Shown: one piece after another, positions 3,645-12,921 of the stretch
How the letters are laid out: each line of letters begins with the position of its first letter
How positions within the stretch are numbered: position 1 is the stretch's first letter
Source: Kineococcus siccus
Lineage (GTDB): Bacteria > Actinomycetota > Actinomycetes > Actinomycetales > Kineococcaceae
Assembly: GCF_009906795.1 (NCBI RefSeq)
Contig: NZ_JAAALN010000004.1
Location: 1 to 64,000 of the forward strand
DNA length: 64,000 nt
Reading direction: 5' to 3'
Program-made: the position numbers and the translations under genes
Notes under the pieces: model-generated
The model's input: only the letters and a program-made list of their open reading frames with translations
The model's database searches: none
What the model was told of the DNA's origin: nothing

Positions 3645-4424
3645 GTGCAGGACGAGATCGACATCGAGTGCTGGCTGACGGACATGGACGGGGTCCTCGT
3701 CCACGAGGAGCGCGCGCTGCCCGGGGCCGCGGACTTCCTCGCCCGGCTGGTGGACTCCGGCCGCCGGTTCCTGGTGCTGACGAACAACTCGATCTTCACG
3801 CCGCGCGACCTCGCGGCCCGGCTCGCGCGCACGGGCCTGCACGTGCCCGAGGAGTCCATCTGGACCTCGGCCATGGCGACGGCGGACTTCCTGGCGCGGC
3901 AGATGCCGCAGGGTTCCGCGTACGTCATCGGGGAGTCGGGGCTGACGACGGCGCTGCACGAGGCGGGTTTCGTCCTGACCGACACCGACCCCGACTACGT
4001 CGTGCTGGGTGAGACCCGCACCTACTCCTTCGAGGCGATCACCCGGGCGATCCGGCTGGTGGAGAAGGGTGCGCGGTTCATCGCGACGAACCCCGACGCC
4101 ACCGGCCCCTCGGCCGAGGGGTCGCTGCCGGCGACGGGGTCCGTCGCGGCGCTCATCACGCGCGCGACGGGCGCGGAACCCTACTTCGTCGGGAAGCCGA
4201 ACCCGATGATGTTCCGCTCCGCCATGAACCGCATCGAGGCGCACTCCGAGACGACCGCGATGATCGGCGACCGGATGGACACCGACGTCGTCGCGGGCAT
4301 CGAGGCGGGCCTTCGCACCTTCCTCGTCCTCACCGGGTCGACCAAGGCGGACCAGGTCGAGAGGTTCCCGTTCCGCCCGCACCGCGTCGTCGACTCGATC
4401 GGCTCGCTGATCGACCTCGTCTGA
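3645..4424 (+). CDS. HAD-IIA family sugar-phosphate/nucleotide phosphatase (NagD-like)
   Basis: 259 residues with all four HAD motifs: LTDMDGVL (nucleophile Asp13, acid/base Asp15), LVLTNNS (46-48), GKPNP (Lys184) and MIGDRMDTDV (Asp209, Asp212, Asp214). The TNN and GKP signatures place it in the NagD/C2-cap group, which dephosphorylates nucleotides or sugar phosphates; the real substrate cannot be told from sequence. The GTG start has GGAGGGG about 8 nt upstream. It may be co-transcribed with deoC, which would fit a clean-up role in deoxyribose phosphate metabolism, but that is inference. It converges with the TPR gene across a perfect palindrome. Confidence 0.88.
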   Translation: MQDEIDIECWLTDMDGVLVHEERALPGAADFLARLVDSGRRFLVLTNNSIFTPRDLAARLARTGLHVPEESIWTSAMATADFLARQMPQGSAYVIGESGLTTALHEAGFVLTDTDPDYVVLGETRTYSFEAITRAIRLVEKGARFIATNPDATGPSAEGSLPATGSVAALITRATGAEPYFVGKPNPMMFRSAMNRIEAHSETTAMIGDRMDTDVVAGIEAGLRTFLVLTGSTKADQVERFPFRPHRVVDSIGSLIDLV

Positions 4425-5338: not shown

Positions 5339-5498
5339 CGGGCGACCCGGCCCGCGCGTCCGCCCGCGCCCGCTCGAACTCCCCCCGCGACACGGGGGCG
5401 TGGCCGTGCTCGGCGCAGGACGCGAGGTAGGCGTCCCAGCGGGCGGAGCCGCCGATCTCCCGCAGGTACCAGCGCACCCCCCGCAGCAGGGCCCTCAC
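5322..5498 (-). CDS. YbdD/YjiX family small protein (DUF466)
   Basis: 58 residues. It belongs to the small YbdD/YjiX family encoded next to CstA/BtsT transporters; the conserved core here is WYLREIGGSARWDAYLA and the family's R-x-E-F-x-R (SRGEFERARADAR). Its GTG start overlaps the cstA stop by four bases (GTGA), so the two are translationally coupled. The last residues (GARCC) are encoded inside an 18-bp tandem repeat, suggesting the C-terminus has been reshaped by repeat slippage. It is thought to be an accessory of the transporter; its biochemical role is not known. Confidence 0.85.
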   Translation of the reverse strand: MRALLRGVRWYLREIGGSARWDAYLASCAEHGHAPVSRGEFERARADARAGSPGARCC

Positions 5499-7693
5499 CG
5501 CCGCACCTCCGCCGCGCTCCCGGTCCCGGAGCTCCCCGCCGCGGCGACCGCGGCCTTCTCCCCGGCCGAGGCGAACAGGCCCGCGGGTTCGACCAGCTGC
5601 GAGGCGACGGCCGGGACCTCGGTCGTCGGCAGCGACCCGGCGCGCACGGCCCGCACCACGACGACGGCGGCGTTGGCGACCACGACGAGGACGAGGACGG
5701 CGAAGACGGACTGCAGCACGCCGTTGACGGTCGAGTTCGTGACGATCTGCTGCATCTCGTCGGGAGCCTTGGCGGGCGCCAGCAGCTGCCCCGCGTCGAG
5801 GGCGTCCGCGTAGCGGGCCCGCTGGGCGAAGTAGCCGATCGCGGGGTTGTCGGAGAACACCTTCTGGTAGCTCGCGGTCATCGTCGTCACGAGGTCCCAG
5901 GCCAGCGGGACGCCCGTCACCCACGCGTAGCGCAGCCGTCCGTGCTTGATGAGCAGCGTCGTCGCCAGCGTCAGCGCGATCGCCGCGAGCAGCTGGTTGG
6001 CGATGCCGAACAGCGGGAACAGCTGGTTGATGCCGCCGAGCGGGTCGGTGACGCCGACGTAGAGGAAGTACCCCCACGCCGCCACGACGGCCGCGCTGGC
6101 CAGGAGGTTGCCCGGGCGCCACGACAGGTCGCCGAACTTCTTCCAGACGTTGCCGACGGTGTCCTGCAGCATGAACCGGCCGACGCGCGTGCCGGCGTCC
6201 ACGGCGGTGAGGATGAACAGCGCCTCGAACATGATCGCGAAGTGGTACCAGAAGGCCTGCAGGCCGCCGCCGAAGGCGGAGTGGAACACCTGGGAGATGC
6301 CCAGCGCGAGCGCCGGGGCGCCACCGGTCCGGGAGACCAGGCTCGGCTCCTCGACGGCGGCGGCCGCCGCGGTGAGCGTCTCGGGGCTCGTCGGGAAGCC
6401 CAGCCCGGTCACGAACTGCGCCGCGCCGGCGGCGTCGCCACCGGTCGCACCCGCCGGGGAGTTCATGGCGAAGTAGATGCCCTGGTCGATCACCGAGGCC
6501 GCGATGAGCGCGCTGATGGCGACGAAGCTCTCCATGAGCATGCCGCCGTAGCCGATGAGGCGGACCTGACGCTCCTTGGCCACCATCTTCGGCGTCGTGC
6601 CCGAGGCGATGAGGGCGTGGAACCCCGACAGCGCGCCGCACGCGATGGTGATGAAGACGAAGGGGAACAGCGACCCCGCGAACACCGGGCCGTTCCCCTC
6701 CCGCGCGAAGCTCGTCACGGCCTCGTTGGCGAGCACGGGCCGCGCGACCAGCAGGCTCGCCGCGAGCAGGACGATGACGCCGATCTTCATGAACGTCGAG
6801 AGGTAGTCGCGGGGGGTCAGGAGCAGCCACACCGGCAGCACCGAGGCGACGAACCCGTACACGACGAGGGCCAGGACCAGCGTCTCCTTGCTGAGCGTCA
6901 GGTCCGCGGCCAGCCCGAGCTGCTCGACGTAGCCCCCGCCGACGATGGCGGCCAGCAGCAGGACGACGCCGATGCCGGTCGCCTCCAGCACGCGCCCGGG
7001 CCGCAGGTAGCGCAGGTAGACGCCCATGAACAGGGCGATCGGGATCGTCAGGGCGATGGAGAACACGCCCCACGGCGACTCCGCGAGCGCGTTCACGACG
7101 ATGAGCGCGAGCACCGCCAGGATGATGATCATGATGGCGAAGACGGCGATCAGCGCGGCGATCCCGCCGACGAGGCCGATCTCCTCTCGGACCATCTGCC
7201 CCAGGCTCTTGCCGTCGCGGCGCATCGAGAAGAACAGGATCGTGAGGTCCTGCACCGCACCCGCGAAGACGACGCCGACGACGATCCAGATCGTGCCGGG
7301 CAGGTAGCCCATCTGGGCCGCGAGGACGGGGCCGACCAGCGGGCCTGCCCCGGCGATCGCCGCGAAGTGGTGGCCGAACAGCACGCGCCGGTCGGTGACC
7401 TCGAAGTCGACGCCGTTGTGCAGCCGCTCCGCCGGGGTCGCGCGCGCGTCGTCGGCGCGCAGCACCCGGTAGGTGATGAACCGCGCGTAGAAGCGGTAGG
7501 CGATCGCGTACGACGCGAGCGCGGCGAACAGCACCCAGAGCGCGTTGACGGACTCGCCGCGGGACAGCGCGAGCACCGTCCAGGCCGTCGCCCCGACGAG
7601 CGCGACGAGCGTCCAGACGACGATCGAGCGGGTGCGGGACCGCGGTGGGCGGGCTGCGCCCGGGTGGTCCTGGGTGGGGATCCTGCTGGACAC
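5495..7693 (-). CDS. cstA: CstA/BtsT family carbon-starvation pyruvate/peptide transporter
   Basis: 732 residues with many hydrophobic segments, matching CstA. Members are proton-coupled pyruvate importers (BtsT/CstA in E. coli) or were linked to peptide use in starvation. Recognisable features are FGHHFAAIAGAGPLVGPVLA near residue 100, GFHALIASGTTPK in the middle, and the N-terminal variable helix. I chose the GTG at 7693 because GAGGAGG lies 5-6 nt upstream; an upstream in-frame GTG at 7720 lacks such a site. It is followed without a gap by the YbdD-like gene, the usual pairing. No LytS/LytTR-type sensor operon is nearby. Confidence 0.93.
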   Translation of the reverse strand: MSSRIPTQDHPGAARPPRSRTRSIVVWTLVALVGATAWTVLALSRGESVNALWVLFAALASYAIAYRFYARFITYRVLRADDARATPAERLHNGVDFEVTDRRVLFGHHFAAIAGAGPLVGPVLAAQMGYLPGTIWIVVGVVFAGAVQDLTILFFSMRRDGKSLGQMVREEIGLVGGIAALIAVFAIMIIILAVLALIVVNALAESPWGVFSIALTIPIALFMGVYLRYLRPGRVLEATGIGVVLLLAAIVGGGYVEQLGLAADLTLSKETLVLALVVYGFVASVLPVWLLLTPRDYLSTFMKIGVIVLLAASLLVARPVLANEAVTSFAREGNGPVFAGSLFPFVFITIACGALSGFHALIASGTTPKMVAKERQVRLIGYGGMLMESFVAISALIAASVIDQGIYFAMNSPAGATGGDAAGAAQFVTGLGFPTSPETLTAAAAAVEEPSLVSRTGGAPALALGISQVFHSAFGGGLQAFWYHFAIMFEALFILTAVDAGTRVGRFMLQDTVGNVWKKFGDLSWRPGNLLASAAVVAAWGYFLYVGVTDPLGGINQLFPLFGIANQLLAAIALTLATTLLIKHGRLRYAWVTGVPLAWDLVTTMTASYQKVFSDNPAIGYFAQRARYADALDAGQLLAPAKAPDEMQQIVTNSTVNGVLQSVFAVLVLVVVANAAVVVVRAVRAGSLPTTEVPAVASQLVEPAGLFASAGEKAAVAAAGSSGTGSAAEVRR

Positions 7694-7801
7694 GCCGCCT
7701 CCTCGCGGTGGTTCCGTCACGGCTGGGCGCCGCGCGACCCCCCGATCCTTCCGAGCTGTGCGTCCGCTGTCACGCCGACTCCCCGCCGCGCGGTGCGGGG
7801 G

Positions 7802-8584
7802 TCAGCGCGCCAGGCCGCCGTAGAGCTCGGGACGGCGGTCGGCGAGGTACGGGTTCGCCCGCTGCTGCTCGCCGACCAGGGCCGGGTCGACCGTCGCGTA
7901 GAGCAGGACGTCGCCGTGGCCGGCGGCCGCGAGCACCTCCCCCGACGGCGCCACGACGCTGCTGCTGCCCACGTACTCCAGCGACCCCTCGCGGCCGTCG
8001 TGGTTGACGTAGGCCACGTAGACCTGGTTCTCCCACGCCCGCACGCGGATGAGCTCCTCGGCGATCCAGCCGAACGGCTCCATCTGCGCGGTCGGCACGA
8101 GCACCAGGTGGGCGCCCGCGGTGGCCGCGGCCCGCACCGACTCGGGGAACTCGACGTCGTAGCAGATGAGCAGGGCGATCCGGACGCCCGCGTGGTCGAC
8201 CACGGTCACCAGGTCGTCGCCCGCGGTGAAGACGGCCCGGTCCAGGGCCCCGAACAGGTGCGCCTTGCGGTGCCGGGCCAGCAGGGCGCCGTCGGGACCC
8301 ACGAGGGCGGCCGTATTGTAGCAGGCGCCGCCCGCCAGCTCGGGCAGGCCGGCCACCACCGCGATGCCGTGCCGGCGCGCGAGGTCCTGCACCCGCGCGA
8401 GCAGGTCCTGCCGCGCGAGCTCGTGCACGCGCTCGCCGATGTCGTAGCCCGTCACGTACATCTCGTCGGTGACCAGGAGGTCCGCGCCGTGGGCCGCGGC
8501 CTCGGCGCAGGCCGCGTCCAGGGCCGCGAGGTTGGCCTCGACGTCGCCGGGCGTCCCGGCGGCCTGCAGGCAGGCGATCTCCAC
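7802..8584 (-). CDS. Carbon-nitrogen hydrolase (nitrilase superfamily)
   Basis: 260 residues. The Glu-Lys-Cys triad is clear: Glu41 (TDEMYVTGYDIG), Lys107 (HRKAHLFG) and Cys141 (LLICYDVEFPE). The family hydrolyses amides or nitriles such as omega-amides or N-carbamoyl amines; the substrate here is unresolved. GTG start with GAGGAG 6 nt upstream. A TACGCT hexamer at 8628-8633 (minus strand) is a candidate -10 for a short leader. It is divergent from the acyl reductase gene. Confidence 0.9.
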   Translation of the reverse strand: MEIACLQAAGTPGDVEANLAALDAACAEAAAHGADLLVTDEMYVTGYDIGERVHELARQDLLARVQDLARRHGIAVVAGLPELAGGACYNTAALVGPDGALLARHRKAHLFGALDRAVFTAGDDLVTVVDHAGVRIALLICYDVEFPESVRAAATAGAHLVLVPTAQMEPFGWIAEELIRVRAWENQVYVAYVNHDGREGSLEYVGSSSVVAPSGEVLAAAGHGDVLLYATVDPALVGEQQRANPYLADRRPELYGGLAR

Positions 8585-8683: not shown

Positions 8684-10978
8684 GTGCGATTGGCTGACGA
8701 GCTCGACGGCAAGCGTCTCCTGCTGACGGGGGTGACCGGCTTCGTCGGCGAGGCGCTGCTCCAGCGCCTGCTCGTCGACCTGCCGGGGACCCGGGTGGTG
8801 GCCCTGGTGCGCCCCAAGCCGGGGCAGAGCGGCACCGACCGCGTGCGCGGCCTGCTGCGCAAGCCGATCTTCCGCGCCGCGGGCGACGTCGACACCCTGC
8901 TCGCCGAGCGGGTCGACGTCCTCGAGGGCGACCTCTCCGCCGTGCCCGCGCTGCCCGACGACGTCGACGTCGTCGTGCACTGCGCGGGCGACGTGTCCTT
9001 CGACCCGCTGATCCAGGAGGCGTTCGGCACCAACGTGCTGGGCACCCGCAGCCTGGTGGAGCGCACGCTGGAGGCGAGCGCCCGCACCGGCACCGCCATC
9101 CACTACGTCCACATCTCCACGGCCTACGTGGGCGGCCGCCGGCGCGGGGCCGTGCCCGAGCGGGCCGTCGAGCACGCCGTGGACTGGCGGGCCGAGACCG
9201 AGGCCGGCCTGCGCACCGCCGTGCGCATCGAGGAGGACTCCCGCCTCGAGGTCAACCTGCGGCGCTTCCTGCGCGAGGCCGAGCGCGACCACGGCCGCGC
9301 GGGGCCGCTGAGCGTCGCCGCGGGGGCGGAGAGCCGCCGGCTGGAGTGGATCACGGCGCAGCAGAAGTCCGCGGGCAAGGAGCGCGCCCGCACGCTGGGC
9401 TGGACGGACGTCTACACGTTCACCAAGGCCATGGGCGAGCGGCTCGTCGAGGAGGTCGCGGCGCCCGTCGTCCCCACGTCCATCGTGCGGCCCAGCATCA
9501 TCGAGTCCGCGCTCGTGCACCCCTACCCGGGGTGGATCGAGGGCTTCAAGATGGCCGAGCCGATCATCATGGCCTACGGCCGGGGGGAGCTGACCGAGTT
9601 CCCCGCGGCCCCGGACTCCGTCGTCGACATCGTCCCGATCGACCACGTCGTCAACGCGATCCTCAAGGTCGCCGCGACCCCGCCGCCGCTGTCGCAGCCC
9701 GCCTACTTCCACGTGTCGTCGGGGTCGCGCAACCCCGTCACGTTCCGCGGGCTCTACGAGCGGGTGCGGCTGTTCTTCAGCGAGTTCCCCTTCGACTCCA
9801 CGCCCGAGGTCCTGCCCACGTGGGACTTCCCCGGCGTCCGCCAGGTCGAGCGCCAGGTCGCGATGGGCGAGCGCCTGACCCGGATCGCCGACCGCGCGCT
9901 GGCCTTCGCGCCCCGGTCCGAGCGCGTGCGCCAGGCCTCGCGCTCGCTGGACAAGGCCCGCGACCGCGTCGACTTCGCCCGCCGCTACATGGACCTGTAC
10001 AAGGCGTACACCGAGGCCGAGCTGCGCTTCGTCGACGACCGGACGCTCGCGCTGCACGAGACGCTCGACCCGGCCGACCGCGAGCTGTTCGCCTTCGACA
10101 CGGCGGTCATCGACTGGGACGAGTACTTCCGCAAGATCCACTGCCCGAGCGTCACGCAGCAGATGCGCAAGTACGAGGAGATCCGCCGGCGCCGCAAGGC
10201 GACCGAGGTAGCAGGCCCCCGCGCGCTGGTGCCGGTCGCCGAGGGCGCGGCGCCCGTGCTCGCGGTCTTCGACCTGGCCGGCACGCTGGTGCAAGGCACG
10301 GTCGTCGACACGTACCTGGCGCTGCGGCTGTCCGAGCTGGACGCGCCGGCCCGGGTGCGCGAGTTCGCGCGCATCGTGCGGCACCTGCCGTCGTGGATCG
10401 CGGCCGAGCGGCGCGACCGGGGCAGCTTCCTGCGGGCCCTCTTCCGCGGCTACGCGGGTGCCGACCTCGACGCGCTGGAGCGCTTCGTGGACGACGTGCT
10501 GGCCCCGACGTTCCTGACCCAGGTCAGCTCGGACGCCCTGCGGCGCATCCAGGCCCACCGCGACGCGGGTCACCGCACCGTGCTCATGACGGGCGACGTG
10601 CGGGCCGTCACGCGGCCGCTGTCCGGGCTGTTCGACGAGGTCGTCTGCACCGACCTCGAGGAGGAGCGGGACTCCGCCGGGGTCCGGCGCGCCACGGGGT
10701 TCCTCACCTCCCCGCCGCTGGTCGGCGAGGCCCGCGCGGCCTGGCTGCGCCGCTACGCGGAGGTCGAGGGGGCCGACCTCGGCGCCAGCTACGCCTACGC
10801 CGACTCCCACTCGGACCTGCCGCTGCTGAAGTCGGTCGGCAACCCCACGGCCGTCTCCCCCGACGTGCCGCTGTTCCGCGCCGCGCGCACGTCGCGCTGG
10901 CCGGTGGCGGACTGGGCGGCCACGTCGGCCACCTTCCGGCTCCGCCTGCCGCAGCAGGTCCTGGCCGGGACCGACTGA
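8684..10978 (+). CDS. Fatty acyl-CoA/thioester reductase (extended SDR) fused to a HAD-IB domain
   Basis: 764 residues. Residues 1-500 form an extended SDR acyl reductase: Rossmann motif LLLTGVTGFVGEALL (12-26) and catalytic Tyr244/Lys248 in VYTFTKAMGE; such enzymes reduce acyl-CoA or acyl-ACP to aldehyde or alcohol. Residues 525-764 are a HAD-IB domain with LMTGDV (635-640) and DSHSDLP (707-713). HAD motif I reads VFDLAGTL: nucleophile Asp530 is present but the usual acid/base Asp is Ala532. The GTG start follows TGGATT by 6 nt, with no ribosome site. It lies upstream of a PlsC-like acyltransferase, suggesting a lipid modification or storage function; the exact substrate is inference. Confidence 0.85.
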   Translation: MRLADELDGKRLLLTGVTGFVGEALLQRLLVDLPGTRVVALVRPKPGQSGTDRVRGLLRKPIFRAAGDVDTLLAERVDVLEGDLSAVPALPDDVDVVVHCAGDVSFDPLIQEAFGTNVLGTRSLVERTLEASARTGTAIHYVHISTAYVGGRRRGAVPERAVEHAVDWRAETEAGLRTAVRIEEDSRLEVNLRRFLREAERDHGRAGPLSVAAGAESRRLEWITAQQKSAGKERARTLGWTDVYTFTKAMGERLVEEVAAPVVPTSIVRPSIIESALVHPYPGWIEGFKMAEPIIMAYGRGELTEFPAAPDSVVDIVPIDHVVNAILKVAATPPPLSQPAYFHVSSGSRNPVTFRGLYERVRLFFSEFPFDSTPEVLPTWDFPGVRQVERQVAMGERLTRIADRALAFAPRSERVRQASRSLDKARDRVDFARRYMDLYKAYTEAELRFVDDRTLALHETLDPADRELFAFDTAVIDWDEYFRKIHCPSVTQQMRKYEEIRRRRKATEVAGPRALVPVAEGAAPVLAVFDLAGTLVQGTVVDTYLALRLSELDAPARVREFARIVRHLPSWIAAERRDRGSFLRALFRGYAGADLDALERFVDDVLAPTFLTQVSSDALRRIQAHRDAGHRTVLMTGDVRAVTRPLSGLFDEVVCTDLEEERDSAGVRRATGFLTSPPLVGEARAAWLRRYAEVEGADLGASYAYADSHSDLPLLKSVGNPTAVSPDVPLFRAARTSRWPVADWAATSATFRLRLPQQVLAGTD

Positions 10979-11033
10979 CCCGCCGCGCGCGTGCCCGGCG
11001 GGCGCGCCGCGGCGGCCGTGGAAGGATGCCTGC

Positions 11034-11090
11034 GTGCTCCCGTCACCGTTGCTGAACGCGCCCGGAGCCGTGCGCGAGGAGGTCCGCTGA
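11034..11090 (+). CDS. 18-codon small ORF coupled to the acyltransferase
   Basis: GTG start with GAAGGA 7 nt upstream, 18 sense codons (MLPSPLLNAPGAVREEVR) and a TGA that overlaps the ATG of the next gene (TGATG). The arrangement is typical of a translationally coupled leader or small protein. I see no family resemblance. It could be chance, since GAGGAGG for the next gene lies inside its last codons. Confidence 0.4.
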   Translation: MLPSPLLNAPGAVREEVR

Positions 11091-11854
11091 TGACGATGCT
11101 CATGGCCGTGCCGCGGGGCGGCCGGGGCCGCCGGGCCCTGCCCCTGCTGCGCGGGCGCGCCGGGACGCCCCGGCCCGACGGCGGCGACGACCAGCACAAG
11201 GTGCACCGCAACGACTGGGTGCGCTCGCGCCCGGCGACGCTCGTGCGCTCGGGCCTGCAGCGTGCGCTGCTGAGCCCGCTCATGCGCGCCGAGCTGCGCA
11301 TCAGCGTGCACGGCGCGGAGAAGCTGGACGCCATCGGCGGGCCCGCCGTCCTGGTCGCGAACCACTCCTCGCACCTGGACGCCCCCGTCATCCTCGAGGC
11401 CCTCGGCGCCCGCCGTCGTCGCCGGGTGGCCATCGCCGCCGCGGCGGACTACTTCTTCGACGTCTGGTGGCGGGCGGCGCCGTCCGGGCTCGTCATCGGC
11501 ACCTTCCCGCTCGAGCGTCGCGGGGGGCGCGGCCCGAACACCTCGGCGCAGCTGCTGCACGACGGCTGGAGCCTGGTCATCTTCGCCGAGGGCGGGCGCA
11601 GCTACACCGGGGAGATGCGCCCGTTCAAGAAGGGCGCCGCCTACCTGGCGCTGGACGCGGGCGTCCCCGTCGTCCCGATGGCCCTGCGCGGCACGTACGA
11701 GGCGATGCCGCCCCGCAGGAACTGGCCCGCCAAGGGCCGCCCGCACGTCACCGTCACCTTCGGGGACCCGCTGCACGGGCTCCCCGGGGAGCGCGCGGCC
11801 GACTTCACGCCGCGCATCCAGGACGCCGTCGCGAAGCTGCTCGCCGACAGCTGA
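11090..11854 (+). CDS. PlsC-type 1-acylglycerol-3-phosphate O-acyltransferase
   Basis: 254 residues. The acyltransferase motifs are NHSSHLDAP (the NHX4D catalytic motif) and FAEGGRSYTGEM (variant of FPEGTRS), followed by VPVVPMALRGTYEAMP. These enzymes transfer an acyl chain to a lysophospholipid at the membrane face. The ATG has GAGGAGG 7 nt upstream and overlaps the stop of an 18-codon ORF. The Gly-Gly in place of Gly-Thr in the second motif is a modest deviation. Position directly after the acyl reductase/HAD fusion suggests the two act in one lipid pathway, since actinobacteria often pair such domains. Confidence 0.85.
   Translation: MTMLMAVPRGGRGRRALPLLRGRAGTPRPDGGDDQHKVHRNDWVRSRPATLVRSGLQRALLSPLMRAELRISVHGAEKLDAIGGPAVLVANHSSHLDAPVILEALGARRRRRVAIAAAADYFFDVWWRAAPSGLVIGTFPLERRGGRGPNTSAQLLHDGWSLVIFAEGGRSYTGEMRPFKKGAAYLALDAGVPVVPMALRGTYEAMPPRRNWPAKGRPHVTVTFGDPLHGLPGERAADFTPRIQDAVAKLLADS

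Positions 11855-12061: not shown

Positions 12062-12921
<860 letters not shown>

Follow-up and report, generated by a model that had tools for sequence, protein, structure and literature searches.

What becomes of a HAD domain that has lost the second aspartate of its motif I is the question raised by a locus of Kineococcus siccus, located in a window of 64,000 nucleotides (the whole stretch analysed here: RefSeq assembly GCF_009906795.1, contig NZ_JAAALN010000004.1, positions 1 to 64,000). On the forward strand of this window, a gene at positions 8684–10978 encodes a protein of 764 residues in which a predicted fatty acyl reductase (FAR) is fused to a C-terminal HAD domain, and a gene for a PlsC-type acyltransferase follows. 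Motif I of the HAD domain (10271–10285) reads DLAGT, with the nucleophile D530 (10271–10273) and Ala532 (10277–10279) instead of the usual acid/base Asp. Our best reading of this locus is that of an active or phospho-trapping HAD domain whose catalytic carboxylate would have moved from one motif to another.

The two Asp residues in motif I of HAD phosphatases are described as having distinct roles: the first attacks the phosphorus, and the second is a general acid/base that protonates the leaving group and then activates water (PMC8069645, PMC12657724, PMC12715507). Given this role of the second Asp, Ala532 would remove the acid/base function while leaving the nucleophile and the Asp residues of motif IV in place. 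A preliminary description of this DNA had already reported the retention of the nucleophile, of motif II and of a DSxSD-type motif IV, and had set the domain apart from ordinary DxD phosphatases on the basis of DLAGT. These observations hold in the translation, which contains D530, T636 and the ADSHSD motif (D707-S-H-S-D711, 10802–10816), with Ala532 at the position of the acid/base Asp.

Among 81 loci (80 relatives and the window), motif I reads DLDGT in 41, DMDGT in 35 and DLAGT in five, the latter being the window and all four loci titled Kineococcus, whose fusion proteins share 80–83% identity with that of the window. We recovered the fusion protein from every genome searched, 11 for the genus and 12 for the family (Kineococcus and a sister genus), the four Kineococcus-titled sequences being identical to four of those from the 11 genus genomes. 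All 12 family sequences are distinct and all carry DLAGT, whereas near relatives have Asp. Ala532 can therefore be attributed neither to chance nor to error, and a sequencing mistake or a neutral private mutation is practically excluded, even if DxD or DxE prevails among homologues outside the family. The preliminary description had proposed that a majority of DxD homologues would imply a random or erroneous change; the answer is mixed, as DxD or DxE is indeed the majority (212 of 247), yet the Ala is fixed in the clade. A second HAD protein of the same kind, found in 10 of the 11 genus genomes, has a canonical DLDNT motif I and TAA at motif II in 10 out of 10 cases. Family-wide, other departures in motif I were observed among 213 distinct homologues (from 224 of 247 loci with a match): DLDGA in five, DIDRV in two, DLENT in 12 and DLQ[K/R]T in eight, the last from the group with Gln at residue 532 and Glu at residue 638.

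Two features had escaped the preliminary description. The same sequences carry a second change, from TGA (or TGV) to TGD in motif II (T636-G637-D638 in LMTGDVR, 10589–10597), which places a new carboxylate, D638, at position +2 of this motif. Asp occupies residue 638 in all 11 distinct genus sequences as well as in the sister genus; not one of the 75 distinct near homologues has it there. Furthermore, with phylum-wide sampling, the residue at position +2 of motif I turns out to vary by clade across the family, being D, E, A, Q or H. We identified 247 distinct actinobacterial homologues (273 loci retained of 292 with a match, out of 310 examined), in which the combinations of residues 532 and 638 are D+A (131), E+A (33), D+V (26), Q+E (13), A+D (12) and H+Q (10), followed by the rarer E+S (9), D+S (6), E+T (4), and D+C, D+G and D+T (1 each). 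Asp or Glu occupies residue 532 in 212 of these sequences, none of which has D, E, Q or N at residue 638. In the 35 others, which have A, Q or H at residue 532, residue 638 is D, E or Q without exception. These figures count sequences, many of them closely related, and not evolutionary events. The 19 loci left aside comprise 10 HAD paralogues, one unrelated reductase match and eight loci that are truncated or broken; motif I was read in five of these eight, with an acidic +2 residue in each (the other three are L195, L289 and L310).

In a tree of 163 representatives based on the reductase domain only, the A+D sequences form one clade (SH-aLRT 99) within D-type relatives, and Q+E together with H+Q form another (SH-aLRT 100), nested in a branch made up of E- and D-type relatives. 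The A+D clade is again recovered in a tree of the HAD domain from which the motif columns had been removed; both trees are quick searches, with warnings on long branches elsewhere in them. As read from these phylogenies, there are two independent losses of the motif I acid, each accompanied by a matching gain in motif II. Further genome sampling, which mostly met genomes already sampled, produced no third loss event.

The remainder of the active site is strongly conserved. D530, R684 (10733–10735), D707 and D711 are invariant in 247/247 homologues, residue 636 varies between Thr (208) and Ser (39), and the reductase residues Y244 and K248 are likewise invariant in 247/247. The motif III Arg684, present in all these homologues, aligns with a Lys in SerB2. 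Beyond residue 638, we noticed an insertion past the strand that follows motif II, where the 75 near homologues all have a gap at residue 660 (about 10661–10663). We also asked whether fixed changes of the clade are concentrated in the HAD domain, using 126 relatives of at least 50% identity (nine of them E+A). Among columns fully conserved in these relatives, 1 of 25 is shifted in HAD versus 0 of 66 in FAR (p 0.27), compared to 2 of 43 versus 0 of 87 at 98% conservation (p 0.11) and 3 of 64 versus 0 of 123 at 95% (p 0.039). This concentration is weak and depends on the threshold, and we do not count it as evidence.

With somewhat less than even confidence, we favour the view that the fusion protein is a two-headed lipid enzyme, combining a reductase with an active phosphoserine-phosphatase-like HAD domain in which the acid/base role has passed to D638. 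The common ancestor of Kineococcus and the sister genus would have exchanged the acid/base Asp for Ala in motif I and gained D638 two residues after the motif II Thr. A phospho-Asp would still be formed on D530, with the help of Mg2+ (bound at D707), T636 and R684, and D638 could then protonate the leaving group and/or activate water in place of the lost Asp. The domain would thereby stay a working phosphatase, presumably acting on a lipid-pathway intermediate, encoded next to PlsC. In another branch, a comparable exchange took place a second time, in the form of Q+E and H+Q. More generally, and with slightly greater reserve, the general acid/base may have been relocated between these motifs on two or more independent occasions, once from D to A with gain of D638 and once from an acid to Q or H with gain of E or Q. 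Such a natural, replicated relocation from motif I to motif II would parallel the layout of P-type ATPases.

An acid at residue 638 could plausibly reach the reacting phosphate. In yeast Pah1, the motif II residues T443 and R445 are both reported to be essential and are modelled in the active site (PMC12357310); we infer that R445 would be the counterpart of residue 638, as matched by spacing and not by alignment. The tungstate-responsive Arg269 of Tetrahymena Pah2 was also considered as a motif II +2 residue and was not equated with it, this Arg being numbered after Lys244. P-type ATPases offer a second parallel, since their P domain shares with the fusion protein the HAD core, the nucleophilic Asp and a non-acidic +2 residue combined with TGD in motif II. 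Five P-type ATPase matches were obtained in the genome of the window; the four loci over cut-off, corresponding to three genes, all read DKTGT (non-acidic +2) and TGD, and one weak match below cut-off was left out. The likeness concerns the layout only; the ATPases have DKTGT and not DLAGT, and the matches listed for the window protein include no ATPase profile.

Several observations weigh against a relocated acid/base. There are only two independent events, for which a sign test gives p 0.5 and cannot reach significance, so that the link between residues 532 and 638 is striking yet not statistically proven. Residue 638 is Gln, not an acid, in the H+Q group; a moved carboxylate thus fails to account for all cases unless the His serves as acid/base. 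The Asp of the ATPase TGD motif is not known to act as a hydrolytic, water-activating base, and the parallel may mean a stable phosphoenzyme instead, which feeds a rival explanation discussed below. In a CARF-HAD protein, conserved HAD residues are reported not to be essential for toxicity (PMC12715507), a case indicating that a lost motif residue need not be repaired elsewhere and that motif residues are not always decisive. Finally, T539, D542, F587, V642 and R668 are also changed in the A+D clade, and a change of substrate would fit these data too.

Such a change, with an active hydrolase acting on a substrate whose leaving group is good or whose head group is cationic, so that no acid is needed at motif I +2, and with D638 and T539 binding this substrate instead of serving as acid/base, is the least improbable of the rivals, although we consider it unlikely. 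The several substitutions fixed in the A+D clade would agree with it. Residue 539, at position +9 of motif I (10298–10300), is Thr in the window and Asn in every one of the 75 distinct near homologues, and it aligns with a Glu of Mycobacterium avium SerB2 located nine residues past the nucleophile; the Glu at this position has a substrate role in phosphoserine phosphatases. R445 in motif II of Pah1 has also been discussed in relation to substrate specificity and/or the structure of the enzyme (PMC12357310). On the other hand, Thr539 is not specific to the clade, being found in some distant relatives as well (38 of 213 relatives, 12 of which belong to A+D), and a new substrate alone does not explain why residue 532 is never acidic when residue 638 is an acid or an amide, a pattern found in 247/247 sequences and arisen twice. 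Substrate preference may nevertheless have shifted together with the acid/base residue, as the difference at residue 539 suggests. Less probable still is a regulatory HAD domain that traps a long-lived phospho-Asp as P-type ATPases do, sensing or transferring phosphate and gating the reductase or PlsC. The combination of DxA and TGD does resemble the DKTGT and TGD of the ATPases encoded by the same genome, the nucleophile and the motif IV Asp residues are kept, and the domain is fused to a reductase; however, we saw no partner domain capable of resolving the phosphoenzyme, and DxD or DxE, as in ordinary hydrolases, is retained by close relatives with this architecture.

That the HAD domain is dead and retained for structural reasons seems improbable, even though the lost residue is described as the general acid/base (PMC8069645, PMC12715507). 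The nucleophile, the motif III Arg and the motif IV Asp residues are invariant, and D638 was gained in 12/12 clade sequences. Moreover, the mean nonsynonymous divergence (dN) in the A+D clade is 0.092 for HAD and 0.131 for the reductase (66 pairs), with synonymous values (dS) of 0.416 and 0.396; the HAD domain is thus not visibly decaying, and decay was rejected on this basis. The same order is observed in Q+E (0.076 for HAD versus 0.107) and H+Q (0.120 versus 0.143), while in the D-type groups the two domains are closer to each other, with 0.157 versus 0.167 in Nocardioides, 0.163 versus 0.144 in Quadrisphaera/Pseudokineococcus and 0.039 versus 0.047 in Kribbella. These rates were obtained by simple counting and very high GC distorts dS, so that only the comparison between domains is meaningful. 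The altered HAD domain appears at least as constrained as the reductase, if anything more, which argues against decay, not against a constrained non-catalytic role. The preliminary description had also likened the DxA pattern to phosphonatases, whose motif I is DWAGT. Apart from this shared DxA, the analogy found no support, and a phosphonatase-like C–P hydrolase is very improbable indeed. Phosphonatases are described as using a Schiff base formed with a lysine of the cap (PMC11203657, PMC10574752), and residues 535–635 contain no Lys in 11 of the 12 clade members, the twelfth having two, neither of them shared. The phosphonatase profile TIGR01422 (E up to 0.001) was matched neither by the whole window protein nor by any of 81 HAD domains, and the fold is of the SerB (phosphoserine phosphatase) type; we ruled out membership in the phosphonatases on these three grounds. 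Phosphonatases sought for comparison in 148 genomes of the class yielded none over cut-off, and therefore no comparator, and no phosphonatase structure is among the 50 HAD fold matches listed, which is not evidence of absence.

The open reading frame of the fusion protein includes its stop codon, and homologues match along most or all of its length. Its N-terminal part is a predicted fatty acyl reductase: an NAD_binding_4 domain (residues 14–326, 8723–9661; 171.7 bits versus a cut-off of 20.1) with the TGVTGFVG motif and the catalytic Y244/K248 pair is followed by a Sterile domain (residues 429–490, 9968–10153; 44.2 bits versus 35.4). The HAD domain (PF12710, residues 527–716, 10262–10831; 116 bits versus 27) has a helical insert after motif I (C1-type cap), as indicated by Pfam, TIGR profiles, the model and the fold search. 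An AlphaFold2 model of the whole fusion protein has a mean pLDDT of 92.4. The corresponding fold search pointed to rice DPW (7eoz) as closest for the reductase (Z 38.5, 437 aligned residues, root-mean-square deviation 3.6); the two share NAD_binding_4 and Sterile domains, fold and Tyr/Lys pair, but the window protein is bacterial and has a C-terminal HAD domain. As this search reached mainly the reductase, the HAD domain was modelled (mean pLDDT 93.4) and searched alone. Among the 50 matches listed, the closest is 3fvv (Z 23.4, 215 aligned residues, root-mean-square deviation 2.4), with phosphoserine phosphatases at Z of about 17–20 (SerB enzymes mostly at 18–20) and P-type ATPases at 13.5–13.8. 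The glycerol-3-phosphate dehydrogenase DsGPDH of Dunaliella (6iuy, Z 15.7), in which a phosphatase is joined to a dehydrogenase, was also matched by the HAD domain and differs in not being a FAR.

The domain thus has the fold, the nucleophilic Asp and the motif IV Asp residues of the HAD superfamily and, because of Ala532, lacks the DxD acid/base of HAD-IB. Its scores are below the cut-off of TIGR01490, with 88.7 bits (whole protein) and 92.1 bits (domain) versus 98.3, and on either side of that of TIGR01488, with 41.9 bits (whole protein) and 45.1 bits (domain) versus 45. It resembles HAD-SF-IB-hyp1 (TIGR01490) and SerB-type proteins (3fvv, SerB2 5is2, MjPSP 1f5s) in fold, helical cap after motif I, motif order, nucleophile, motif II Thr/Ser and motif IV. 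Compared to SerB2 of M. avium, it has Ala in place of the acid/base Asp, Asp in place of Gly at motif II +2, Arg in place of the motif III Lys and Thr in place of Glu at +9. The actinobacterial FAR-HAD fusions with DxD or DxE have the same whole architecture (about 35–66% identity) but keep the acidic +2 residue and have a small or hydrophobic residue at 638.

The PlsC-type protein (11090–11854, same strand, 3' of the fusion gene) has 254 residues counted from ATG, contains an NHSSHLD motif and matches PF01553 with 93.9 bits versus a cut-off of 23. Its start is likely the ATG at 11090, which is preceded by AGGAGGT and gives an intergenic distance of 111 bp, and not the GTG at 10991; relatives are compatible with this choice. 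A scan for promoters and terminators detected no promoter-like site and one terminator-like site, inside the PlsC gene, a number near expectation. The linkage to PlsC noted in the preliminary description was confirmed in the clade and is patchier in many other relatives. The PlsC gene follows the fusion gene, with the same orientation, in 11 of 12 A+D loci (in the twelfth, the available sequence ends 205 bp on), in 10 of 10 H+Q and in 8 of 8 Q+E loci. In D+A loci, it occurs in 45 of 104 within the DNA examined (37 on the same strand, eight on the opposite one), compared to 2 of 26 D+V loci (about 4 kb downstream covered for many), 0 of 33 E+A loci (only about 1.5 kb downstream covered) and 4 of 20 in the remaining groups. 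Other genes are sometimes inserted between FAR-HAD and PlsC, e.g., a zinc alcohol dehydrogenase and a lactate-racemase-type (Lar_N) protein in a Kribbella locus (L006:6304-9115) and a short-chain dehydrogenase/reductase in one Q+E locus. This linkage fits a lipid pathway and does not name the substrate. AGPAT-HAD fusions, proposed to act in the Kennedy pathway with a function still to be elucidated (PMC10351704), similarly pair a PlsC-type acyltransferase with a PF12710 HAD domain; there, the HAD is fused to the acyltransferase, whereas here it is carried by the reductase and PlsC is a separate gene.

In this FAR fusion with its HAD-IB-like domain, the most interesting part is the complementarity of residues 532 and 638 across the family. 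The signature of HAD phosphatases is taken to include the second Asp of motif I, and here this residue is D, E, A, Q or H depending on the clade. The complementary pairs provide natural test cases for the exchange of catalytic residues in HAD enzymes, and they bear on how P-type ATPases, which likewise lack the second Asp of motif I, could have arisen. The family also draws attention to an actinobacterial lipid locus, composed of FAR-HAD and often of PlsC, that has been little studied. Among the open-access papers listed, judged mainly by titles and the openings of abstracts, we found no treatment of FAR-HAD fusions or of such an exchange between motifs I and II.

Other genes of the window surround this locus. 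A separate HAD protein (Hydrolase_6 and Hydrolase_like domains) with a DMDGV motif is encoded at 3645–4424. Upstream of the fusion gene, on the opposite strand, the region 5495–8584 encodes a CstA carbon starvation transporter and a carbon-nitrogen hydrolase, and the PlsC gene is followed by one for a protein with Transglycosylase-like and LysM domains (12241–12921).

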